In this document: positions 1 through 51,055 of the stretch, piece by piece
Numbering within the stretch: position 1 is the first letter of the stretch
Layout of the letters: every line of letters starts with the position of its first letter
Assembly (NCBI GenBank): GCA_028278505.1
Contig: JANQEG010000009.1
Location: 1 to 64,000 of the forward strand
Length of the DNA stretch: 64,000 nt
Direction: 5' to 3'
Source of the DNA: Rhodobiaceae bacterium
GTDB taxonomy: Bacteria > Pseudomonadota > Alphaproteobacteria > Rhizobiales > JAKPQE01
The notes under the pieces: model-generated
Database searches by the model: none
The model's input: only the letters and a program-made list of their open reading frames with translations
Told to the model about the DNA's origin: nothing
Translations under genes and position numbers: made by a program

Positions 1-1203
1 ACCACCGGCACCTATGCCAGCAAGAAGATGCACATGCTGCGCGTCAAATGTTCGGCGTGTCATCTGGAATGGGACAAATCGATCGCCCGCGAGGTCGTCC
101 AGAAACCGGATCTCGGCGCCCTTGCCGTCAAGGTCGGCAAGCCCAGCGTCGCCGTGTGCGGATCCTGTCATTTCGCCAGCGATGGCGGCGACGGCGTCAA
201 GCATGGCGATCTCGATTCGTCGCTCCTGAAGGCGACCAAGGACCTTGACGTCCACATGGCCAAGGACGGCCTTGGATTTTCCTGCACGACCTGCCACCAG
301 ACGGCGCGCCACCAGACCGTCGGCAGCCGCTACGATCCGGCGAGCAAGGAAACCAAAGGCGTCGATGTGGTCGGCGGCAGCCGGGCGACCTGCGCTTCCT
401 GCCACGGCCTGACCCCGCATCCCGCGACCGCCAATGTCAAATTGAACGATCACACCGACCGGATTGCCTGCCAGACCTGCCACATCCCGGCGCTGGCGCG
501 CGGCGGCGTGCCGACCATGACCTATTCGGACTGGTCGACCGCCGGACGGCTGAACGAAAAGAAGAAGGCGATCATCGAAAAGGATGCCGATGGACGGATC
601 ATCTATTCGTCACAGCGCGGCAACGCCGAATGGGCCGAGAATCTTGAACCGACCTATGTCTGGCTCAATGGCGAGATCAAATACCTGACCCTGTCGGACG
701 AGATCAACGCCGACGAAACCGTCCGTCTCAACACATTCGCCGGCAGCGCCGACGATCCGGATGCCCGCATCTGGCCGGTCAAGGTGCTGCGCGGCAAGCA
801 GCCGGTCGACACGGAGAAGTCGACGCTGGTTACGGCCCGCCTGTTCGGCAAGAAGAAGGACGCCTACTGGAAGGCCTATGACTGGGAGAAATCCATCCAT
901 GCCGGGATGGAGGCGGCCGGCCACGAGTTCAGCGGCAGTTTCGATTTTGTCGAAACCCAGATGTACATCACCGTCAACCATATGGTGGCGCCGGCCAAGG
1001 ACGCGCTGGCGTGCGACGCCTGCCACAGCCGCGACGGCCGGATGGCGGCGATCGCGGGAATTTACATGCCCGGGCGCGGTGCCGATCCGCTGGTCGACCT
1101 CATCGGCGTGGTGCTGCTGGCGGCAACGGCGGCCGGCGTGATCGGCCACGCCGCCTTACGGAAACTCCTCAAACGCAAAGCACACAGGACGCCGCAATCA
1201 TGA
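1..1203 (+). CDS. Multihaem cytochrome c, octahaem tetrathionate reductase (OTR) family, 5' end missing
   Basis: The reading frame is open at the left edge, so the N-terminus is outside the window; 400 codons are visible. Six CxxCH haem sites are seen, with the first cysteine at visible codons 17, 53, 95, 131, 157 and 338. The region between the fifth and sixth sites, and the 'NHMVAPAKDAL.CDACH' context of the last, resemble the OTR family as I remember it; two further haems upstream would make eight. A hydrophobic segment near the C-terminus followed by a basic tail (about codons 360-392) would anchor the protein with its haems in the periplasm. The stop overlaps the start of the cytochrome b gene (ATGA), so the two are translationally coupled. 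I infer a role as electron carrier between the cytochrome b and the downstream molybdoenzyme. An OTR-like reductase activity of its own is also possible. Confidence 0.8.
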   Translation, partial: TTGTYASKKMHMLRVKCSACHLEWDKSIAREVVQKPDLGALAVKVGKPSVAVCGSCHFASDGGDGVKHGDLDSSLLKATKDLDVHMAKDGLGFSCTTCHQTARHQTVGSRYDPASKETKGVDVVGGSRATCASCHGLTPHPATANVKLNDHTDRIACQTCHIPALARGGVPTMTYSDWSTAGRLNEKKKAIIEKDADGRIIYSSQRGNAEWAENLEPTYVWLNGEIKYLTLSDEINADETVRLNTFAGSADDPDARIWPVKVLRGKQPVDTEKSTLVTARLFGKKKDAYWKAYDWEKSIHAGMEAAGHEFSGSFDFVETQMYITVNHMVAPAKDALACDACHSRDGRMAAIAGIYMPGRGADPLVDLIGVVLLAATAAGVIGHAALRKLLKRKAHRTPQS

Positions 1204-1820
1204 CCGAACGCGTCTATCTCTTCACCCGTTTCGAAAGGTTCTGGCACTGGTCCCAGGCGGCGCTGATCATCTTCATGGCGACCACCGGATTCGAGATCCA
1301 CGGTTTCTATACGGTGTTCGGCTTCGAGCAGGCGCTGGGCCTGCACACCTTCGCGGCCTGGGCGCTGATCGGCCTGTGGGTGTTCGCCACGTTCTGGCAC
1401 GCCACGACCGGCGAATGGCGCCAATACATCCCGACCTTCGAGCGGATCAGCGCGATCGTGCATTACTACGCCATCGACATCTTCGGCGACGCCCCGCACC
1501 CCTACCACAAGACCCGGCTGCACAAGCACAATCCGCTGCAGCGTCTGGTCTATCTCGGCCTCTGGGTCGTCATCAATCCGGCGATCTGGATATCGGGCCT
1601 GCTCTACCTCTTCTACAACGATTGGGAAGCCTGGGGCCTGGCGCGGTTCCTCGATCTGGAAACGGTCGCGCTGGTCCATGCCTCGGCCGCCTTCCTGATC
1701 GTCATGTTCCTGATCGGACACGTTTATCTGGTCACCCTCGGTCGCACCACCTTCACCCATATCAAGGCGATGATCACCGGGTGGGACGATCTCGACACCG
1801 AAACGGAAGGAGGCAGCTAG
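1200..1820 (+). CDS. Cytochrome b561 / thiosulfate-reductase-type cytochrome b subunit
   Basis: A 206-residue membrane protein with about four hydrophobic helices and histidines suited to haem b ligation (H16 in 'FWHWSQ', H49, H67, and the 'LVHAS' and 'IGHVYL' histidines in the last helix). The pattern matches the b-type subunits of thiosulfate reductase, formate dehydrogenase-N and Ni/Fe hydrogenase, which exchange electrons with the quinone pool. The ATG at 1200 overlaps the cytochrome c stop and keeps the family N-terminus ('ERFWHW'), which supports the start. With the octahaem-type cytochrome it would form a quinol-oxidising membrane module for the molybdoenzyme. This is not the usual NrfD-type ArrC/PsrC anchor. 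The N-terminus is intact and nothing suggests degradation. Confidence 0.85.
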   Translation: MTERVYLFTRFERFWHWSQAALIIFMATTGFEIHGFYTVFGFEQALGLHTFAAWALIGLWVFATFWHATTGEWRQYIPTFERISAIVHYYAIDIFGDAPHPYHKTRLHKHNPLQRLVYLGLWVVINPAIWISGLLYLFYNDWEAWGLARFLDLETVALVHASAAFLIVMFLIGHVYLVTLGRTTFTHIKAMITGWDDLDTETEGGS

Positions 1821-1929
1821 ACGGCGCGGATCGTTCGAACTCGAGGGCGCCCGATCGATATGAATTTTGTTCTGAACCACCTAGCGCAACGCAAGGTTTC
1901 CCTTTGGAGACCGTCCAAGGAGGTGAGTC
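1821..1929 (+). promoter_or_regulatory. Intercistronic gap with strong ribosome binding site for the Mo subunit
   Basis: A 109-base gap separates the cytochrome b stop from the molybdoenzyme ATG. It ends in an AGGAGGTG Shine-Dalgarno sequence about six bases before ATG 1930, which fixes that start. The gap is longer than others in the operon and could hold a second promoter, but I see no convincing -35/-10 pair. Confidence 0.5.
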
Positions 1930-4488
1930 ATGAAGCTCAATCGTCGAGACTTTATCAGGAGTTCCGCCGTGACCGGCGGTGCCGTCGTAACCGCGGCCAT
2001 GGTTGCGGATACCCGGCCCGCGGGCGCGCAAACCGACGGGCCCGCGCCGTTGCCGGCCTCGCCCGGCCCGGGGGAATGGTTGCCGACCGTGTGTCAGGGC
2101 TGCACGTCCTGGTGCGCCGCCGAAGCCTTCGTCCAGGACGGCCGGGTCGTCAGGGTGCGCGGACACCATCTGTCCAAGAGCAGCGGCGGCTATCTGTGCC
2201 CGCGCGGCCATCTCGGCATCGCCCAGATGTATGATCCCGATCGCGTCAAGGTGCCGATGAAGCGGACCAATCCGCAAAAGGGCCGCGGCGTCGATCCGAA
2301 ATTCGTCCCGATCAGTTGGGACGAGGCGCTCGATATGATCGCCGACAAGATGATGGAACTGCGCAACAACGACGAAACCCACAAATTCATGGTGATGCGC
2401 GGCCGCTACACCTATTGCCGCGACGTCATCTATGACGCCCTGCCGAAGATCTTCGGCTCGCCCAACAACATCTCGCACAGCGCCATCTGCGCCGAGGCGG
2501 AGAAGTTCGGGTCCTATTACACCGAAGGCTACTGGGACTATCGCGACTACGATCTCGCCGCTTCGAAATACGTCATCTGCTTCGGCGCCGATCCGATCGC
2601 CTCGAACCGGCAGGTCCCGAACGCGATCCGGCAATGGGGCAAGCTGCTCGACCGGGGAACCGTTGTTGCGGTTGATCCGCGGTTGTCGGCGACCGCCTCC
2701 AAGGCGCATGAATGGATGCCGGTCAAGCCGGGCGAGGACAGCGCGCTGGCGGTGGCGCTGGCCCATGTGATCCTCACCGAAGGCCTGTGGAGCCGCGAAT
2801 TCGTCGGCGACTTCAAGGACGGCAACAACGCCTTCAAAGCCGGCGAGACCGTGGATGAGGCGGCCTTTGACGAGAAGCTGACCAATGGCGTCGTCAAATG
2901 GTGGAACATCGAACTGAAGGACCGGACGCCGGAATGGGCCGAGAAGGTCTGCCTGGTGCCGGCCGATCAGATCCGCCGCGTCGCCATCGGCTTCGCCAAG
3001 GCGGCCCCGAACGCCATGGTGTGGATGGCGCCGGGTGCGTCCATGCAGCCGCGCGGGGCCTATGGCGCCCTCGCCGCCCATGCCCTCAACGGCCTGGTCG
3101 GCGGCGCCGACAACGAAGGCGGCTCGCTGCAGAAGATGAGCGCGAAATACACGCACATCCCGCTCTACAAGGACAAGTACAAGCCCTATCTCGACGAGAT
3201 CGCCCAGAAGGGCTTAAAAAACAAAAAGATCGATCAGCGAGGAACGCTTGAATTTCCATCGCTCAACAAGAAACCGGGCGGCGGCGTCGTCACCAACCGG
3301 GCGGCGGACGGGATCCTCGACGAGAACCCGAACGAGATCAAGGTCGCCATCGGCTACTGGAACAACTTCCCGTTCTCGTGCACCGGCGCGACCCGTTGGG
3401 AAAAGGCGCTGACCAAGCTGCCGTTCTTCGCCCATATCGTCACCAACCCGTCGGAGATGAGCCAGTTTGCCGACGTCGTGCTGCCGGCATCGTTCAGCAT
3501 GTTCGAACGCTGGGGTCTGCTGCCGAGCAAGTACAACCGGCACAGCTACATCATCATGAACCAGCCGGTGGTCAAACCCTTGTGGGACACGCGCACGGAT
3601 GAGACCGAAGTCGTCTGGATGCTGGCCAAGAAGCTGAAGGAGAAGGGATTTGCCAATCTCTTCGACTATTTCCAGACCGAAATGACGGATCCGGAAACCG
3701 GCAAACCGGCCGAAAACGAAGCCGAGTTCGGCAAGATCACGGTCAAGATCATGACCGAGAAGCAGTGGAACCCGGAAAAGTACCACAGCGGCGACAAGTT
3801 CGACGGCTGGGAGGCGTTCCAGAAAGTCGGCCTGTGGCAGTCGGACCAGTATCCGTACAAGAAAAAGTGGGAGAAGGGCTTCAAGACCAAAACCAAGAAG
3901 TTCGAATTCTACAGCGAGACCTTGAAGGACGTGCTCACCAAGCACGCCGAGAAGCACGGTGTCGACATCGACAAGGTGATGGAGGTCACCCAATATGCGG
4001 GCCGCGGCGAACAGGTCTTCGTGCCGCATTGGGAGCCGGCCAAATATCACGGCGACGAGGCGGAGTATCCGTTCGTCTTCATGGACAGCCGCAGCCGGCT
4101 GAGCCGCGAGGGCCGGTCGCAGAACCTGAAGGAATTCTACGAATTCAAGAAATGCGATCCCGGCGACACCAGCCATGTCGACGTGCTCAAGATCAATCCG
4201 AAGGATGCCGCCACACTCGGGGTATCAACCGGTGACTGGGTCACGGTGACGTCGCCTGAAAAGAGCGTGAAGGTTCAGGTCAAGCTCTGGGAGGGCGTGC
4301 GCCCCGGCACGGTCAACAAGACGTTCGGCATGGGCCATTGGGCCTATGGACGGATCGCCGCCGAGGACTACGGCAAGCACGCTGCCCGCGGTTTCAACAA
4401 CAACGAATTGCTGCCGGCCGACTATGACCGGCTGAGCGGTTCGACCGCGCGCCATGCCGTGAGCCGGGTCAGGATCGAGAAGGTCTGA
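1930..4488 (+). CDS. Tat-exported molybdopterin oxidoreductase, ArrA-like (respiratory arsenate reductase family)
   Basis: 852 residues. A twin-arginine signal (RRDFIR at 5-10, hydrophobic stretch to about 33) sends the folded enzyme to the periplasm. C55, C58, C62 and C90 form the N-terminal [4Fe-4S] site. The active-site strip matches ArrA: RGRY at 157-160, then H183, S184, C187 (Mo ligand), K192 and Y204. As I remember the Shewanella ANA-3 ArrA structure, the arsenate-contacting residues are R165, Y166, H189, S190, K198 and Y210 with Mo ligand C193, so each is displaced by exactly six here. ArxA-type arsenite oxidases instead carry a GRGWG-like motif. Length (about 850) also fits ArrA and is shorter than TtrA (about 1000). 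Reduction of arsenate is therefore the best guess; other oxyanions or sulfur compounds are not excluded. A Fe-S partner and a TorD chaperone follow, as in arr operons. Confidence 0.8.
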   Translation: MKLNRRDFIRSSAVTGGAVVTAAMVADTRPAGAQTDGPAPLPASPGPGEWLPTVCQGCTSWCAAEAFVQDGRVVRVRGHHLSKSSGGYLCPRGHLGIAQMYDPDRVKVPMKRTNPQKGRGVDPKFVPISWDEALDMIADKMMELRNNDETHKFMVMRGRYTYCRDVIYDALPKIFGSPNNISHSAICAEAEKFGSYYTEGYWDYRDYDLAASKYVICFGADPIASNRQVPNAIRQWGKLLDRGTVVAVDPRLSATASKAHEWMPVKPGEDSALAVALAHVILTEGLWSREFVGDFKDGNNAFKAGETVDEAAFDEKLTNGVVKWWNIELKDRTPEWAEKVCLVPADQIRRVAIGFAKAAPNAMVWMAPGASMQPRGAYGALAAHALNGLVGGADNEGGSLQKMSAKYTHIPLYKDKYKPYLDEIAQKGLKNKKIDQRGTLEFPSLNKKPGGGVVTNRAADGILDENPNEIKVAIGYWNNFPFSCTGATRWEKALTKLPFFAHIVTNPSEMSQFADVVLPASFSMFERWGLLPSKYNRHSYIIMNQPVVKPLWDTRTDETEVVWMLAKKLKEKGFANLFDYFQTEMTDPETGKPAENEAEFGKITVKIMTEKQWNPEKYHSGDKFDGWEAFQKVGLWQSDQYPYKKKWEKGFKTKTKKFEFYSETLKDVLTKHAEKHGVDIDKVMEVTQYAGRGEQVFVPHWEPAKYHGDEAEYPFVFMDSRSRLSREGRSQNLKEFYEFKKCDPGDTSHVDVLKINPKDAATLGVSTGDWVTVTSPEKSVKVQVKLWEGVRPGTVNKTFGMGHWAYGRIAAEDYGKHAARGFNNNELLPADYDRLSGSTARHAVSRVRIEKV

Positions 4489-4518
4489 CTGCCGACCGAC
4501 CGATGAGAGGAACGAATC

Positions 4519-5295
4519 ATGTCTGTTAAATATGGAATGGTCATCGACCTGCACAATTGCGTCGGCTGTGGCAGTTGCGCATTGGCCTGCAAGGTCGAAA
4601 ACAACACCCAGGCTCGGGCCCATGGCCAGAGCTTCAACTGGGCCGACTTCACCATGGAGACCACGGGCACGTTCCCGGACGTGACCTACACGCAGATGCC
4701 GGTGCTGTGCAATCACTGCAGCGAACCGCCCTGCGTGGAGGAATGCCCGACCGAGCCGAAGTCGATGTTCACCACGCCCGAAGGCATCGTCATGTTCAAC
4801 CAGGAACGGTGCATCGGCTGCGGTGCCTGTCTGGATGCCTGCCCCTACAGCGTCAAGGAACTGGGCGAAGACAGCAATGACGGCGCCAGCTACAGCGTCA
4901 TCAGCTTCAACCCGTTCAAGAAGAAGGTGCACCCGGACTGGCTGGACACCACTGCCGCGATCCCCGGCTGCACCAGTTCCGGCGCGGAAGTCGTCGAGGC
5001 GACCGGCAACATGCCGCCGGCGACCAACAAATTCGTCTCCGGCGACGTGCCGCAGGTCCGCAATATGGGCATCATCGAGAAGTGCACGTTCTGCTACCAC
5101 AGGACGATCAATGGCGAATTGCCGGCCTGTGTCGAGGTGTGCCCGTCGGACGCCCGGATCTTCGGCGATCAAAACGATCCAAACTCGAAAATCGCCAAGA
5201 CCCTGGCCGCCCACGAGGCGACGCGGTTGCAGGAAGACGAAGGGACCGAACCCAACGTCTTCTACATCCGTAGCTACAGCGATCCGAGGATCTAG
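4519..5295 (+). CDS. Four-cluster ferredoxin-type subunit, ArrB/PsrB/DmsB-like
   Basis: 258 residues with no signal peptide, as expected for a subunit exported with its Tat partner. Four cysteine clusters are visible: C14/C17/C20/C24 at the N-terminus, a 'CNHC...C...C' group, 'CIGCGACLDAC', and a C-terminal 'CTFC...C...C' group. This is the standard 4x[4Fe-4S] wire of the PsrB/PhsB/ArrB/DmsB family. Between the second and third-to-fourth clusters there is an insertion rich in Asp, Ser and Thr (about residues 115-175). GAGAGGAA lies ahead of the ATG, 30 bases after the Mo subunit. It should carry electrons from the membrane cytochromes to the Mo subunit. Fe-S binding is near certain; assignment to ArrB specifically rests on the neighbouring gene. 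Confidence 0.85.
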   Translation: MSVKYGMVIDLHNCVGCGSCALACKVENNTQARAHGQSFNWADFTMETTGTFPDVTYTQMPVLCNHCSEPPCVEECPTEPKSMFTTPEGIVMFNQERCIGCGACLDACPYSVKELGEDSNDGASYSVISFNPFKKKVHPDWLDTTAAIPGCTSSGAEVVEATGNMPPATNKFVSGDVPQVRNMGIIEKCTFCYHRTINGELPACVEVCPSDARIFGDQNDPNSKIAKTLAAHEATRLQEDEGTEPNVFYIRSYSDPRI

Positions 5296-5316
5296 GGATC
5301 GCTTGAGCGGCAGAGC

Positions 5317-5346
5317 GGGACGGGGTCGCGCGCCCCCGTCCCTCTT
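5317..5346 (+). terminator. GC-rich intercistronic hairpin between Fe-S subunit and chaperone genes
   Basis: A perfect 9-bp stem, GGGACGGGG (5317-5325) with CCCCGTCCC (5334-5342), encloses an 8-base loop and is followed by TCTTT. The U-run is short, so it is more likely a partial terminator or mRNA-stabilising element that lowers chaperone expression relative to the structural subunits than a complete stop. Confidence 0.5.
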
Positions 5347-5359
5347 TGCGGAGGTTCTG

Positions 5360-5983
5360 ATGAACGACCTTCAGGCCGAAATGAACGCCCGTCTTCGTGC
5401 CAAGGCAGACGTCTATCGTCTGCTCAGCGCCTGCTATTACGAGCCCGAAGACGCGTTTCTCCAGGAGGATGTGTTCGGCCAGATCCAGTCGGCGCTGTCG
5501 GTGCTGTCCGGCGATCTGGCCGAAGCGGCCGCAAGCCTCGCTGCGTCCTATCGGGAGGCGGGGCAGGAGGCGCTGATGCTCGATCACACAGGGCTGTTTC
5601 TCGGGCCCTTCAACGTTCGCGCCAAGCCCTACGGTTCGGTCTATCTCGACGGCGAAAACGTGGTCATGGGCAACTCGACCATGGCGGTCCTGGCGCTCTA
5701 CCGGGACGCCGGGTTCCATGTCGACGACGCCTTTCGTGAAATGCCCGATCACGTGGCGCTGGAACTGGAGTTTCTCTACCTGCTGAACGCGCGTCTGGCC
5801 CAGGAGGAGCGAACCGATGAGCGCCAACGGCTCACCGGGCTGAAGGACACGTTCCTGCGCGTGCATCTCGGCCAGTGGATCGTGCCTTTCGCCGAGGCCG
5901 TGGAACGCGGGGCCGATACCGAATTCTATAAAGGGCTTGCGGCGCTGACGCGGCGCTTCGTCCACTGGGACTATCATGGCTAA
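5360..5983 (+). CDS. TorD/DmsD-family molybdoenzyme chaperone
   Basis: 207 residues, almost wholly helical. Family hallmarks are the 'DHTGLFLGP' segment followed by 'KPYGSVYLDG' in the middle, and 'MPDHVALELEFLYLL' in the second half (compare the conserved E-PDH-x3-E-FL of TorD proteins). Members bind the Tat signal peptide of a partner molybdoenzyme and hold it until the cofactor is inserted. The partner is presumably the Mo subunit at 1930-4488. The ATG at 5360 is preceded by GGAGG at a proper distance; a longer in-frame extension upstream lacks family similarity. ArrD and TtrD are functional equivalents in related operons. It acts in the cytoplasm. Confidence 0.85.
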   Translation: MNDLQAEMNARLRAKADVYRLLSACYYEPEDAFLQEDVFGQIQSALSVLSGDLAEAAASLAASYREAGQEALMLDHTGLFLGPFNVRAKPYGSVYLDGENVVMGNSTMAVLALYRDAGFHVDDAFREMPDHVALELEFLYLLNARLAQEERTDERQRLTGLKDTFLRVHLGQWIVPFAEAVERGADTEFYKGLAALTRRFVHWDYHG

Positions 5984-5998
5984 TACTGGTTGCCTGTC

Positions 5999-6988
5999 AT
6001 GAATTCACCGCTTGGCGGCTATGCTTTGAGGGCGGTCACGCCGGAGACTTCGATTTCCGTCGACCGGTCGCGTTGCGTGCGGCATCGGTGCACGAAAAAC
6101 GCCTGCACCGGATGCATCGAGGCCTGCCCGGCGGGCGCCGTCTCGTGGGGGGCTGGGGGGCTCCGCATCGATCCCGTCGCCTGCCGGCAGTGCCTCAATT
6201 GCCTCGCGGCCTGCCCGACCGCTGCACTTTCCTTAGCTGAACTGTCGCTGCCGCGCCTGCTCAACGATCTGGCGCGCCAGGCGCGGCCGGTGCTTGGCTG
6301 CCAATTGCGGCCGGACACCGACGCCCATGCCCGCATGCCCTGCCTCGGCCGTCTCGCCGATCCGGAGCTGATGGTGCTTTGCGTCCTGGTGTTCTCCGAC
6401 GGCCTGACCGTCAACCTCTCGGCCTGTTCGGCATGCGTCAACGCGCCCGTTCTGGCCGGTATCGAGGCGGCGCATCGGCGGCTGGACGAGCTGGTGCCGG
6501 GTCATGCCATCAGGCTGGTCCGGACCCGGGAAGAGCTCGATTTCGAACCGCCCGCCCTGTCGCGGCGCGAACTCTTTGCCCTCTTTCGCGATCGCTCCGC
6601 ACGCTCTGCCATGAGCATGGTCGCGCGCCTTCACGGCGATGCGCCGCGCCAGGCCTATGGCGACAAGCAGGTTCCCCCGGTCCGGGCGATGCTTTTGAAC
6701 GCGCTGGAGGAAACGGACCCGGCGAAACGCCAGCTCATCGCCGCCCGGTTGTTCGGCAGAATCGAATTCACCGACGATTGCGTAAGGGCCGACAGATGCA
6801 TCGGTGTCTGCCCCACCGGCGCGATCGCGCCTGCAAAGTCGGATGACGGTTCACCGTCATTCAATTCAGACTTTTGCGTGTCCTGCGGATCCTGCCAAAT
6901 GTTTTGCCGCAATGGCGGCGTTCGCCTTTCGAAAGAACAGGCGATGGACGCCGGCGGCGCCCCGTCGAGGGAACAGGCCATCTGTTGA
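5999..6988 (+). CDS. Polyferredoxin-like 4Fe-4S protein of unknown role in the Arr-like operon
   Basis: About 329 residues and soluble. N-terminal clusters: C26, C31, C36, C39, C43 and then C62, C65, C68, C72, a dicluster ferredoxin pattern. The middle (about 95-200) has a 'CLGRLADPEL' segment and further cysteines ('LSACSACVNAP') but no family I recognise. The C-terminus has another pair of ferredoxin motifs ('CVRADRCIGVCPTGAI' and 'CVSCGSCQMFC'). ATG 5999 is used here; a TTG at 5990 in the same frame is possible, and neither has a good ribosome binding site. It starts 16 bases after the chaperone gene, so it is in the operon. It has no export signal, so a cytoplasmic role in maturation or electron supply (compare NapF) is inferred, not shown. 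Confidence 0.7.
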   Translation: MNSPLGGYALRAVTPETSISVDRSRCVRHRCTKNACTGCIEACPAGAVSWGAGGLRIDPVACRQCLNCLAACPTAALSLAELSLPRLLNDLARQARPVLGCQLRPDTDAHARMPCLGRLADPELMVLCVLVFSDGLTVNLSACSACVNAPVLAGIEAAHRRLDELVPGHAIRLVRTREELDFEPPALSRRELFALFRDRSARSAMSMVARLHGDAPRQAYGDKQVPPVRAMLLNALEETDPAKRQLIAARLFGRIEFTDDCVRADRCIGVCPTGAIAPAKSDDGSPSFNSDFCVSCGSCQMFCRNGGVRLSKEQAMDAGGAPSREQAIC

Positions 6989-16224: not shown

Positions 16225-18996
16225 ATGGACGATCCTCTTCCGCTTATCATTGTCGCCGTGCTCGCGGTGCCGGTCGCCGCAATCGCGGCCTTCGTGCTGG
16301 CGCTGATGAACCGGCGGCGCCTGCAGCGCCTGGAGGACCAGCTCGCCGGGCTGGAGCGGTCTGTGGCCAAAATCAGCCTGCGCCGGGACGGCGTGTTCGG
16401 CACGCCCGGGCGCGCAGCGGCCGGACCGCAACCCTCCGCAGCCGTCGACGAAAGCCCGGAGCCGGCGACCGAACCGAAAGTCGAGGCGGGCCCGGAACCG
16501 CGCAAACCCGCCCCGCGAGCCGAACCGCCGGCGGCGCCGCAAACGCCCGCCCGCGCCGCCGCGGCGGCGGGCCCGGCAAAAGCGGGCCGCAGCTTCGAGG
16601 AAACTATTGGCACCCGCTGGACCGTCTGGGTCGGCGGCCTGGCGCTTGCGCTCGGCGGCGTCTTCCTCGTCCGTTTCGCCATCGAGCAGGGGCTGCTCGG
16701 CCCGGCGGCGCGGATCGCCCTCGGGGCTGCGTTTTCCGCCCTGCTCCTGGCGCTCGGCGAATGGACAAGGCGCAATGAGCGGCAACAGGACCTGTTCGGC
16801 TTCGACGCCGCCAACATCCCCGGCGCGCTGACCGCGGCCGGCACCGTCGCCGCCTTTGCCACCGTCTATGCCGCCCACGCGCTCTACGGCTTCATCGGGC
16901 CGGGATTTGCCTTCATTGCGCTTGGCATCGTCTCGGTCGCGACCATGGTGCTCGCTGCGCTCCACGCGCCGTGGCTGGCCGGCCTCGGCCTTGTCGGCGC
17001 CTTTGCGACACCGGCCCTCGTCTCCCGCGATGAGCCGCAGGCCGTGGCACTCTTTTCGTTTCTGATCGCCGTCAGTTTCGCCGCGCTGTGGCTGGCACGG
17101 ATACGGCATTGGCGCTGGCTGGCGATCGCCGCGATCGCCGGCGCCATCTTCTGGGGCATCCTCTATCTCGATTTCGTCGCCAGGGGCGACTATGACGCGC
17201 TCGCCTTTGCGTTCTATGTCGCCGCAGGGGCGGTCCTGACCGGTTATTTCCTCGTTCACGACGTGCACCGGGAGGAACCGGCCGACACCGATATCTGGCC
17301 CGACTGGCTCGCGCTCGCCGGGCTCACCGGCTATGCCCTGCTGTGCTTCGGCGCGCTCCAGACGGAACGCTATGGCGGCAATGCGCTGGCGCTGCTGGCG
17401 GCGTTGTCGATCGGGTATTTGGCGCTGGCCTGGCGCTATCCGGCGGTCATGCTCGGCGTCGCCATCGCCGGCGGGCTTGTCGCCATTTCCTATTTCGACT
17501 GGCCGGCCGGGTCGTTTGCGGTGCCGCCGGAAACGCTCGCGCCCGAGCTTGAAGGCGTGCCGCGCCTGCGTCATCCCGACTACACCGGCTATCTCGGCGT
17601 CGGCCTGTTCTATGGCGTGACCTTCCTTGTCGCCGGCGTCGTCGCGTCCTGGCGGGCGCTTCCAACCGGCCGGGTGATCGCGGGTCTCTGGGCGGCGCTC
17701 GGCAGCGCCGTCGCGATCGCGCTTCTGGTGATTGCCTATTACCGGGTCACCGATTTCGAACGTTCGATGCCGTTCGCCGCCGCCGCACTGATCGTCTCGA
17801 TCGCCACGGCCATGGCGTTCGAGGCGTTCGTCCGGCGCGAGCGGCGCGACGAATTCCCGGTGCCGAGCCTTGCCGGCACGGCCTACGCGGTGGCGGCGAT
17901 CGCAAGCTTCGCGCTGGCGCTAACAATTGCCCTCGAAAAGGGCTGGCTGACGATCGCGCTCGCCGCAACCGCCGCCGGCACCGCCTGGATATCTAGCGTG
18001 CGTCCGGTCGGCGCCCTGCGGCCGCTGAGCACAGCACTCCTGATCGTGGTGCTCGGGCGCATGTTCTGGGATCCGGCCATTGTCGGCGATGATCTCGGCA
18101 CCACCCCGGTGCTCAACTGGCTGCTCTACGGCTATGGCGTGCCGGTGCTGGCGGCGAGTTACGCCGCCTGGATTTTCGGCCGCGCGCGGCAGGATTTCTG
18201 GGTGCGGGCGCTGCAGACGCTGGCGATCGTGTTTGCGGCGATGCTCGCCGTCTTCGAAATCCGCCATTTCATCCATGAGGGCGACATCCTTGCCGAGACC
18301 ACGAACATTGTCGAACAGAGCCTGATGACGGTCGTCGCGCTGGCGTTCGCGATCGGCCTCGACCGTATCCACCGGCTCGGCGCAGGCCCGGTCTTCGCCA
18401 CGGCGACGCTCATTGCCGGCACTGCCGGTTTCGCCATCATCATCCTCGCCCATTTCCTCTTCTACAATCCGCTCTTCAGCGGCGAGCCGGTCGGCACCGG
18501 CATCGTCTTCAACGATCTCCTGCTCGGCTATGCGGTGCCGGCGCTGCTTGCGGCCATTCTCTATCTGGTGACGCGAACCACGCGGCCGGCCGCCTATGCC
18601 GCGACCGCCGGCGGGTTGGCGATCGCGCTCGCTTTCGCCTATCTGAGCCTGACGGTACGCCATATTTTCCAAGGCGAATACCTGGACCTTTACCGCTCAA
18701 CCGGCGACGCGGAACTCTACACCTATTCCGTGGTCTGGCTCGGTTTCGGCATCGTGCTGCTGATTGCCGGCATCTGGAGCGCCTCGCGGCCGCTGCGCCT
18801 GGCTTCCGCGATCGTCATCGTCGCGACCGTGTTCAAGGTCTTCTTCGTCGACATGGGCGGGCTGACCGGGGTCTGGCGGGCGCTCTCCTTCATCGGCCTC
18901 GGCGCAGTGCTGATCGCCATCGGCGCGCTCTATCAGCGCCTGCTCTTCCCGCGGGCGCGCGCCGGCGAGGCGGAGGGCGGGCGCCCGGCCTCATGA
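16225..18996 (+). CDS. Very large DUF2339 membrane protein
   Basis: 923 residues. One N-terminal membrane helix (about 5-25) is followed by a short charged coiled segment, then a Pro/Ala/Glu-rich linker (about 65-130). The rest is more than 20 closely spaced hydrophobic helices that fill the protein to its end. 'GTRWTVWVGGLALALGGVFLVRFAIEQGLLGP' is the signature entry into the DUF2339 domain. The function of the family is unknown. The start at ATG 16225 gives the normal N-terminal helix. It converges with nadC with only 23 bases between the two stops. Confidence 0.85.
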   Translation: MDDPLPLIIVAVLAVPVAAIAAFVLALMNRRRLQRLEDQLAGLERSVAKISLRRDGVFGTPGRAAAGPQPSAAVDESPEPATEPKVEAGPEPRKPAPRAEPPAAPQTPARAAAAAGPAKAGRSFEETIGTRWTVWVGGLALALGGVFLVRFAIEQGLLGPAARIALGAAFSALLLALGEWTRRNERQQDLFGFDAANIPGALTAAGTVAAFATVYAAHALYGFIGPGFAFIALGIVSVATMVLAALHAPWLAGLGLVGAFATPALVSRDEPQAVALFSFLIAVSFAALWLARIRHWRWLAIAAIAGAIFWGILYLDFVARGDYDALAFAFYVAAGAVLTGYFLVHDVHREEPADTDIWPDWLALAGLTGYALLCFGALQTERYGGNALALLAALSIGYLALAWRYPAVMLGVAIAGGLVAISYFDWPAGSFAVPPETLAPELEGVPRLRHPDYTGYLGVGLFYGVTFLVAGVVASWRALPTGRVIAGLWAALGSAVAIALLVIAYYRVTDFERSMPFAAAALIVSIATAMAFEAFVRRERRDEFPVPSLAGTAYAVAAIASFALALTIALEKGWLTIALAATAAGTAWISSVRPVGALRPLSTALLIVVLGRMFWDPAIVGDDLGTTPVLNWLLYGYGVPVLAASYAAWIFGRARQDFWVRALQTLAIVFAAMLAVFEIRHFIHEGDILAETTNIVEQSLMTVVALAFAIGLDRIHRLGAGPVFATATLIAGTAGFAIIILAHFLFYNPLFSGEPVGTGIVFNDLLLGYAVPALLAAILYLVTRTTRPAAYAATAGGLAIALAFAYLSLTVRHIFQGEYLDLYRSTGDAELYTYSVVWLGFGIVLLIAGIWSASRPLRLASAIVIVATVFKVFFVDMGGLTGVWRALSFIGLGAVLIAIGALYQRLLFPRARAGEAEGGRPAS

Positions 18997-19019
18997 TTTG
19001 GCAGCGACAAACCCCAAGG

Positions 19020-19874
19020 TCAGACGAAGTCGAGCCCTATGTCGAGTACCGGCGCCGAATGGGTGATGGCGCCGACCGAGATCATGTCGACGCCGGTCTC
19101 GGCGATCGCGGCGACCGTGTCGAGACTGACGCCGCCGGAGGCTTCGGTCGCCGCCCGCCCGGCGACGATCTCGACCGCCTGGCGCAGCGTCTCCGGCGCC
19201 ATGTTGTCGAGCAGCACCGCGTCCGGCCCCGCCGCAAGCGCCGCCCTGAGCTGGTCGAGCGTGTCGACCTCGACCTCGATCTTGACGAGATGACCGACGG
19301 CCGCCCGCGCCCGCCGGATCGTCTCGGCAATGTCGCCGACGGCGGCAATATGGTTGTCCTTGATCAGCACCGCATCGTCGAGGCCGAAGCGGTGATTGGT
19401 CCCGCCGCCGCAGCGCACGGCATATTTCTCAAAGGCGCGCAGCCCCGGTGTCGTCTTCCGCGTGCAGCAGATCTTTGCCTCCGTGTGGGCGACACGCGCC
19501 ACATAGGCGGCGGTTGCCGTGGCGATGCCGGAGAGGTGGCCGAGGAAGTTGAGTGCGACCCGCTCGGCGGAAAGGATCGGCCGCGCCGGGCCCTCGATCT
19601 CGGCGATCACCGATCCGGCGGTGACCGCCGTTCCGTCCGCCACACGCGCGGTGAACCGGGTGGCCGGATCGACCTGCCGGAACGCGCTTTCGCAAAAGGC
19701 AAGCCCGGCGATGGTCCCGTCGCGCCGCACGGCGATAAACGCCCGCGCCTTATCATGCGCCGGTATCGTCGCATTGCTGGTGATGTCGCCGGCGCGGCCG
19801 AGATCCTCGGCGAGCGCCGCCGCCACGGCCCGGTCGACCGCCAGCCGCGACAGGGGAGGCAGCGTCGAATTCAT
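19020..19874 (-). CDS. nadC: Nicotinate-nucleotide pyrophosphorylase (quinolinate phosphoribosyltransferase)
   Basis: 284 residues. Converts quinolinate and PRPP to nicotinate mononucleotide, the third step of de novo NAD synthesis. '[11 protein letters not shown]' near the N-terminus, '[24 protein letters not shown]' and the C-terminal '[11 protein letters not shown]...[17 protein letters not shown]' are all diagnostic. The ATG at 19874 overlaps the nadB stop (ATGA), giving tight coupling. It is the last gene of nadA-nadB-nadC. Confidence 0.97.
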
Positions 19875-21502
19875 TCCGCCGCGGCCGCTTCGCGCACCGG
19901 CCGGTCGGAAATCTCCGCGGCGAACCGCTCCGCATCGGCCAGATGCATGTAGCTGCGCCGCGCGAAATCCGCATCGGTTTCCGGGAAATCGGTGCGCCGG
20001 TGTCCGCCGCGGCTTTCGGTCCGTCGCCAAGCGGAAACCGCAATCAGCTTCGCCGTCGTCAGCATGTTGGCGAGCGCGCGATTGCGGCAGCGCGCCTCCA
20101 TCTGCGTAATCGCGCCGATCGCTTTGGCCAGGCTTTCGGCGCTGCGCTCGACGCCGACATGGGCGGTCATGATCCGCCGCAATTCGTCGACCGTCTTGCT
20201 GTCCGGCTTTTCGTCGGGAAGCGTCGTGTCCGAAGGGCCCTCGGGCCACGGGATGATCCGCGGCACCGGCAAGAGCCCGTGAATGTCGTCGGCGATGCGG
20301 CCGGCGAAGACGACCGCCTCAAGCAGTGAATTCGAGGCGAGCCGGTTGGCGCCGTGGGCGCCGGTCGAGGCGACTTCCCCGGCCGCCCAGAGCCCGTCGA
20401 GCGAGCAGCGGCCATTGGCGTCGGTGAGGATGCCGCCCATGTGGTAATGGGCCGCCGGCGCCACCGGGATCGGCTCGGTGACCGGATCGATCCCCGCCGC
20501 CATGCAATTGTCGTAGACGGTCGGAAAACGGTCGTCCATTTCCGCACCGATCGCAGAGCGGCAGTCGAGGAAGGCGCCCTTTCCGGACGATATCTGGGCG
20601 TGGACCGCGCGGGCAACGATGTCGCGGGGCGCCAGTTCCGCGTCCTCATGAATTCTGGTCATGAACCGGTCGCCATCAGCGTCGATCAGGATTGCGCCCT
20701 CGCCGCGAAGCGCCTCGGTCGCCAGCGGCGCCGGATCGATGCCGGTGTTGATCGCGGTCGGGTGAAACTGTACGAACTCGCAGTCGGCAACGATCGCGCC
20801 GGCCCGGGCGGCGATCGCCAGGCCCTCGCCGCGGGCCTCGAGCGGGTTGGTGGTGACGGCGTAGAGATGGCCGAGCCCGCCGGTCGCCATGACGACGGCG
20901 CGCGCCGGCAGCGTCACGGTGCGCCGGGCGCGGCCGCGCAGCGGCCGGGCGACGATGCCGGTGACCGCCCGCCCGTAGGTGACGAGCGCTTCGGCGGTAT
21001 AGCCTTCCAGCACCCGGATCGACGAGGTCTTGCGCACGGTTGCGATCAGCGCCGACATGATCGCCCAGCCGGCCTGGTCGCCGCTGACATGAACGATGCG
21101 CCGGGTCGAATGGGCGGCCTCGCGGCCGACCGCGAGCCGGCCCTCGAGATCGCGGTCAAAGGGGACGCCGTAGCGCAGCAGGTCCTCGATCCGCTGCGGC
21201 GCCTCGCGCGCCATCATCCGGGCGATCTTGTCCTCGACCAGCCCGGCACCCGCCGCGATGGTGTCGGCCGCATGCGCCTCCGGCGTGTCGCCCTCGGCGA
21301 CCGCGGCGGCAATCCCGCCCTGGGCCCAGGTCGACGACGCGCCCTCGCCGATCGGCGCCGCCGACAGCACGGTGACCGGCCGCGGCGCCAATTGTAGTGC
21401 ACAGAACAGCCCGGCGAGGCCGGCGCCGACGATGACGACGTCGTCGATGCCGTCGAGCGATTGCGGCGGCAGGACATGTTCTGCGCTGGCGCTTTCGGTC
21501 AT
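19871..21502 (-). CDS. nadB: L-aspartate oxidase
   Basis: 543 residues. A flavoprotein that oxidises aspartate to iminoaspartate for NadA. The FAD-binding '[14 protein letters not shown]' starts at about residue 24. '[13 protein letters not shown]', '[12 protein letters not shown]', 'EFVQFHPTA' and the C-terminal '[16 protein letters not shown]' region match NadB rather than succinate dehydrogenase. It is encoded between nadA and nadC, overlapping nadC by four bases and 43 bases downstream of nadA. Confidence 0.97.
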
Positions 21503-50626: not shown

Positions 50627-51055
50627 TCACGCGGCGGCGAAACGGCGCCTGATCCGGGTTGCCAGCATGTCGCGCACCGACCGGTAGGCATCGAGAATCT
50701 GGGTGCGGGAGCCGCCGGTCGCGGTGGCGTCGGGCGTCGGCCAGTATTCGACCTCGACGGCCATGGTGCGGGTCAGTTCCAGCGCCCGGTGATGCGCCTC
50801 CGGCGACAGCGTCACGACGAGGTCGAAATAGTCGTCTTCGAGATCCTCGAAGGTGTGCGGCCGGTGCACCGACATGTCGAGGCCCATCTCCTCGATCACC
50901 GCGATGGCGAAGGGATCGCGCGCGCCGCGGCGGACGCCGGCGGATTCGACATAGAGCCCACGCGGGAAGAAATGGCGGGCGAGCGTCGCCGCCATCGGTG
51001 AGCGGACGGCATTGAGGGCGCAGGAGAACAACACCGAACTCGGATGCGCGATCAT
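50627..51055 (-). CDS. Low-molecular-weight tyrosine phosphatase-like / ArsC-like protein
   Basis: 142 residues. The catalytic loop '[15 protein letters not shown]' has C12-x5-R18, the LMW-PTP/arsenate reductase signature. The general acid Asp region '[12 protein letters not shown]' replaces the more common 'DP'. It is part of a conserved Hyphomicrobiales order between UPF0262 and infA, so it is a housekeeping member and not evidence of arsenic resistance. Probably a protein tyrosine phosphatase. Confidence 0.8.

Follow-up and report, generated by a model that had tools for sequence, protein, structure and literature searches.

A candidate ArrAB-type arsenate reductase operon in which a nine-haem OTR-type cytochrome and a cytochrome b561 may provide the quinone link

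The stretch of DNA analysed here, referred to as the window, consists of the first 64,000 bases of contig JANQEG010000009.1 (C83; 75205 bp) from the draft genome of a Rhodobiaceae bacterium (3.35 Mb in 150 contigs, 84.9% complete). Positions 1-6988 carry six genes, all on the + strand as a preliminary description of this DNA had placed them, and the coupling of the encoded enzyme to the quinone pool is the subject of this work. The leading gene (1..1203) contributes the C-terminal 400 amino acids of a multihaem cytochrome c of the OTR type, which is anchored in the membrane by its C terminus (TIGR04315; PDB 1sp3, E value 1e-66), and its stop codon is overlapped (ATGA) by the start at 1200 of the gene for a 206-amino-acid membrane subunit of the cytochrome b561/Ni_hydr_CYTB type (1200..1820; PF01292, 5e-21). 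These are followed by genes for an 852-amino-acid ArrA-type molybdopterin subunit (1930..4488; 53% identity to ArrA of Shewanella ANA-3, 6cz7) and a 258-amino-acid ArrB-type subunit with four iron-sulfur clusters (4519..5295), whose closest solved chain is Shewanella ArrB (6cz7_B, 9e-57) and which scores 236 bits against NF041715. A TorD/DmsD-like chaperone (5360..5983; PF02613, 1.5e-31, and the NCBIfam TorD/DmsD family), of 207 amino acids if read from the ATG at 5360, its most likely start, and a 332-amino-acid ferredoxin-type protein with four clusters (5990..6988; Fer4 family matches), found in the same place in relatives, complete the set. Kinship of the ferredoxin with ArxB2 was considered and rejected, the resemblance being weak and confined to the motif regions.

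The cytochrome gene is broken by the contig edge at base 1 of the window. A search with the full-length OTR of a relative (G015) located the N-terminal part at the end of contig C52 (21375-21902), the final 99 bases of which are identical to the initial 99 of the window. Because C52 supplies the missing N terminus, the six-gene operon is complete, and the joined frame encodes an intact 544-amino-acid cytochrome with nine CXXCH motifs, three from C52 and six from the window, rather than the octahaem protein of the preliminary description. The truncated protein scores 399.6 bits against the TIGR04315 cut-off of 375, which places it in the OTR family, although that family is specified by eight motifs; judged by its sequence, the cytochrome is a nine-haem relative of OTR. 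The extra motif lies in an insert after the third CXXCH (window 31..63, + strand), which contains an invariant His (31-33) and the additional site CSACH (49-63). The insert, with this His and the ninth CXXCH, is present in 7/7 operon-linked OTRs, whereas its His and second Cys occur in 0/31 other OTRs, and it looks like a true additional haem site with a possible second ligand. An AlphaFold2 model of the nine-haem protein (L026, 7 rows) had a mean predicted local distance difference test score of 34, too poor to place the ninth haem. Alignment further showed that a Lys in the sequence GGDGVKHGD (codon at 199..201, + strand) matches Lys153 of 1sp3 and is kept in all seven operon-linked copies. 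In OTR, Lys153 serves as the lysine ligand to the haem of the active site, as reportedly described by Mowat in 2004.

The molybdenum (Mo) subunit had been called ArrA-like, and phylogeny bears this out. In a tree with PhsA-like outgroups and an ArxA set made up of Cereibacter pORIO3 (L115) and alphaproteobacterial loci, it fell inside the ArrA clade with 100/100 support, on a branch that also holds ArrA of Shewanella ANA-3 and Mesobacillus selenatarsenatis, and apart from ArxA; a larger quick tree agreed. The protein reads MRGRYTYC, with RGRY at residues 157-160 (2398-2409), where ArxA has XGRGWG, and a (R/K)GRY motif has been proposed to tell ArrA from ArxA (PMC6549141). It also bears the other marks of ArrA, namely, a twin-arginine (Tat) signal, the cluster motif C-X2-C-X3-C-X27-C, the Mo-ligand Cys (2488-2490), and an adjacent arrB. 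Its sequence marks it as an ArrA-type enzyme, with arsenate as the probable substrate. The NCBIfam model NF041714 gives it 1099.9 bits against a cut-off of 1600; dismissal of the ArrA identity on this score was considered and dropped, since the cut-off also shuts out established ArrA: the M. selenatarsenatis SF-1 protein scores 1119 bits, and all other ArrA-clade proteins tried were likewise below 1600. As an equivalog threshold, 1600 bits will cause automatic annotation to miss most ArrA. ArrA comprises several lineages, among them that of the window, which departs after the motif (RGRYTYC). Its nearest group comprises deltaproteobacterial metagenome-assembled genomes (MAGs; L031-L036) with anchorless arrAB-torD-ferredoxin operons, several of which adjoin ars genes.

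Among 84,980 species genomes scanned, 324 ArrA relatives were found. The six-gene order, which the preliminary description had proposed to look for in other genomes, recurred in six: the five best public genomes (ArrA 84-86% identical) and G015 (83%). The carriers are an Arenicellales MAG, a symbiont of Ctena orbiculata, a gammaproteobacterial MAG, an alphaproteobacterial MAG, a Magnetococcales MAG, and G015, so that, with the source genome, seven genomes across the Alphaproteobacteria, Gammaproteobacteria, and Magnetococcales share the operon, and the arrangement extends beyond the alphaproteobacterium of the preliminary description. By its identical order in relatives, the six-gene set lies far beyond chance. 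Since samples of 385 genomes from the class and 398 from the phylum contained no further carrier beyond L030, which was already counted, the arrangement is rare. A further candidate, G535 (ArrA 84% identical), lies on a contig that matches L030 in both length and gene content and was therefore left out of the count. No NrfD/ArrC gene was found in the operon or near it upstream on C52, in agreement with the expectation that no standard NrfD gene would stand directly upstream, and none was present in the operons of the six relatives; most other ArrA loci have an NrfD gene before arrA or after arrB. The gap before arrA (window 1815-1935; the same gap in L021 and L026-L028) is 98-113 bp long in all seven genomes, and its alignment revealed no clear conserved regulatory element. 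In several genomes this gap contains a small palindrome such as CTCAGGATTATCCTGA, which is weak in the window.

We sampled 30 OTR genes across the phylum. All 30 were stand-alone genes encoding eight CXXCH, and 26/30 adjoined a b561 gene; no Mo-enzyme gene was found among the neighbours examined in 20 stand-alone OTR-b561 loci. Such pairs, with a C-terminally anchored cytochrome (L116-L145, L146-L165), are frequent among Pseudomonadota, and no partner enzyme is apparent for them. OTR and b561 together thus form a common pair and not the two unusual parts of the earlier view. The seven ArrA-operon OTRs make up one clade (support 100) among b561-linked OTRs. In 33/33 OTR-linked b561 sequences, four His residues do not vary, as would be expected of a dihaem b cytochrome.

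Just before the cytochrome gene, in the region upstream of the window where the preliminary description had proposed to look for ars genes or a regulator, C52 carries a sensory gene set: a periplasmic binding protein (17284-18276), a histidine kinase (18273-20027), a 128-amino-acid single-domain receiver (20024-20410), and, on the opposite strand, a LuxR-type regulator (20398-21099). The binding protein is ArrX-like; its best match is the solved ArrX 6x6b (2.8e-60), ahead of AioX (6.6e-42), and it keeps Tyr, Cys, Tyr, Ser, His, and Asp of the arsenic-oxyanion pocket, with Ser163 replaced by Thr. The pocket residues of AioX and ArrX have been described, with ArrX binding arsenate and not arsenite (PMC5908839). 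Elsewhere in the genome, a glutaredoxin-type ArsC scored above its cut-off on C22, and arsR-like, arsC-like, and aquaporin-like genes stand in a row on C63 (L178:1144-2693), the latter two below their curated cut-offs. This trio recalls rhizobial ars operons that have an aquaporin in place of an arsenite pump. The substrate had been said to rest on the Mo subunit alone; this holds within the window, outside which the ArrX-like sensor directly upstream, the C63 cluster, and the glutaredoxin-type ArsC all lie, but no longer for the genome. In the relative G015, the X sensor is closer to AioX and the regulator is of the NtrC type. X-kinase-regulator genes also stand upstream of the sister arrA in L032-L035; the pocket Cys is missing from their X proteins, which are PhnD-like and may sense something else, and we do not propose these as arsenic sensors.

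Taken together, these data probably describe an ArrAB-type respiratory arsenate reductase operon in which the link to quinone is made by the OTR-b561 pair and not by an ArrC of the NrfD type or an unlinked CymA. We infer a path in which the dihaem cytochrome b561 would oxidise quinol and pass electrons to the periplasmic, membrane-anchored nine-haem cytochrome c, from there to the iron-sulfur clusters of ArrB, and finally to the Mo site of ArrA, which would reduce arsenate in the periplasm. Three observations lead us to propose the steps between quinol and ArrB: the genes share a conserved operon, this operon encodes no other anchor, and the ninth haem is specific to the partnered cytochrome; the direction of flow and the existence of a physical complex are likewise predictions. 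TorD and the ferredoxin may serve maturation or accessory electron transfer, and the upstream ArrX-like sensor, histidine kinase, and receiver would switch the operon on. Since stand-alone OTR-b561 pairs are common, an anchorless arrAB-torD-ferredoxin operon probably captured a pre-existing pair, the cytochrome of which then gained its ninth haem, possibly as a docking haem for ArrB.

Several points weigh against this proposal, whose support comes from sequence. Conservation of the Lys aligned with Lys153 makes a catalytic role of OTR possible, so that the cytochrome may act as an enzyme and not as a wire. Although no protein of the NapC/CymA type is encoded in the operon, the genome has a nap cluster on C85 (L168), the napC of which could feed ArrAB. 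No ACR3 pump was found in the source genome at its 84.9% completeness. Arr has been argued to need menaquinone, and by that argument a cell with ubiquinone only would hardly respire arsenate (PMC2500031). Two MenA homologues exceed the cut-off, so menaquinone is possible, but no MenD above the cut-off and no MqnA-type enzyme were found, which leaves menaquinone synthesis uncertain. Membership of the ArrA clade is also no proof of substrate; one report links an ArrA-clade protein of Desulfurivibrio to nitrate respiration by proteomics (PMC12142623).

These points feed three other explanations. In one, which we consider rather unlikely, OTR-b561 is a separate quinol-linked terminal reductase, for instance of tetrathionate, nitrite, hydroxylamine, or thioarsenate, that is merely cotranscribed with arrAB, while ArrAB is fed by a NapC/CymA-type protein encoded elsewhere. 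The pair can presumably work alone, given how common it is without a Mo enzyme; the active-site Lys and the napC gene fit this explanation, and Shewanella ArrAB works with an unlinked CymA (PMC2500031). However, each of the seven genomes has the pair at the head of its arr operon, no other anchor is encoded there, and the ninth haem site is confined to the operon-linked OTRs, as would be expected upon the gain of a new partner. It is also conceivable that the cytochrome does both, keeping a catalytic Lys-ligated haem while wired to ArrAB. Such a bifunctional complex would have two reduction sites supplied by one cytochrome b, the Mo centre for arsenate and the OTR haem for a sulfur or nitrogen compound or a thioarsenate, and would form a third class of quinone coupling; we give this version a slim chance.

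The direction of electron flow could alternatively be reversed, with ArrAB acting as an arsenite oxidase that passes electrons via OTR and b561 to quinone or a photosynthetic chain. The gene content of the source organism suggests anoxygenic phototrophy together with nitrate respiration: reading of the open reading frames revealed bch/crt-type genes on C64 (L169) which, like the nap cluster, lie near a MenA homologue. The Arx system works in arsenite oxidation linked to phototrophy or to nitrate (PMC6683785), possession of an ArrA-like enzyme by a cell that uses ubiquinone has been associated with an inability to respire arsenate (PMC2500031), and the AioX-like sensor of G015 would suit an oxidase as well. 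Nevertheless, the Mo subunit belongs with ArrA and has RGRY, the sensor adjoining it in the source genome is ArrX-like, and MenA is present, and we therefore regard reverse operation as quite unlikely. Reduction of another oxyanion (nitrate, selenate, antimonate, or polysulfide) through the same wiring seems very improbable. The Desulfurivibrio case and the divergence after the RGRY motif speak for it, whereas the sensor with its arsenic pocket adjoins the operon, ars genes lie beside several sister-clade arrA genes, an ACR3/SBF-family gene is found upstream of the operon in L028, and the genome has its own nap genes for nitrate.

Described arr operons are of the arrCAB or arrAB form and are coupled via ArrC or CymA (PMC2500031, PMC8076601). 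No description of OTR or b561 as an Arr partner was found in the open-access literature, to which the search extended, and we class the system as an enzyme of the ArrAB type whose proposed coupling module is new. The Shewanella arrAB-CymA system is similar in its ArrA (53% identical), its ArrB (the best match), the lack of an NrfD subunit, and the expected multihaem c-type route; however, CymA is an unlinked tetrahaem quinol dehydrogenase of the NapC family, whereas here a b-type cytochrome and a nine-haem OTR relative are encoded in the operon. The arrCAB operons of Bacillota and others and the arrABC operons of Desulfobacterales and others share homologous ArrA and ArrB and a TorD-like chaperone but have the NrfD-type ArrC that is missing in 7/7 genomes here. 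Cereibacter pORIO3 arxXSR-arxB2ABCD resembles the operon in having an ArrA relative (about 35% identity), a sensor-kinase-regulator set, a ferredoxin-type accessory protein, and a TorD-like gene, and differs in its XGRGWG motif, separate clade, NrfD-type ArxC, and upstream position of the ferredoxin gene. With OTR (1sp3/TIGR04315), the cytochrome shares family, eight CXXCH, and the Lys ligand, and with the stand-alone pair form it shares the C-terminal anchor and b561 partner, but the ninth CXXCH, the extra His, and the downstream arr operon set it apart. As in the AioXSR, ArxXSR, and ArrXSR systems, an ArrX-like periplasmic protein stands beside a histidine kinase and a receiver; unlike in those systems, the receiver is a 128-amino-acid single domain and the LuxR-type regulator is on the other strand. 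Through arsenate respiration, arsenic in sediments and aquifers becomes mobile, and for many arrAB operons the partner has yet to be identified. If the proposed wiring is correct, it would represent a third quinone-coupling route, genetically fixed in an operon across the Alphaproteobacteria, Gammaproteobacteria, and Magnetococcales; the widespread and poorly understood OTR-b561 pair would gain a readable context as a wire to a known enzyme, and the cytochrome would be a marked case of haem addition on a change of partner.

Some minor observations were made along the way. The ArrA proteins of L087 and L091 are identical and come from MAGs labelled Propionivibrio and Selenomonadales; these are related records, which suggests a binning error in one. 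A low-molecular-weight phosphatase/ArsC-like protein is encoded at 50627-51055 of the window on the - strand and scores 59 bits against thioredoxin-type ArsC (cut-off 174); it is probably no true arsenate reductase. Finally, the source genome has a second sensor-kinase-regulator set with an NtrC-type regulator (C14:898-11180, L114), the X protein of which is 40% identical to AioX; it adjoins a TorD-like gene, a PhsA-like Mo subunit (860 amino acids), and a cytochrome with ten CXXCH and may belong to another oxyanion system.

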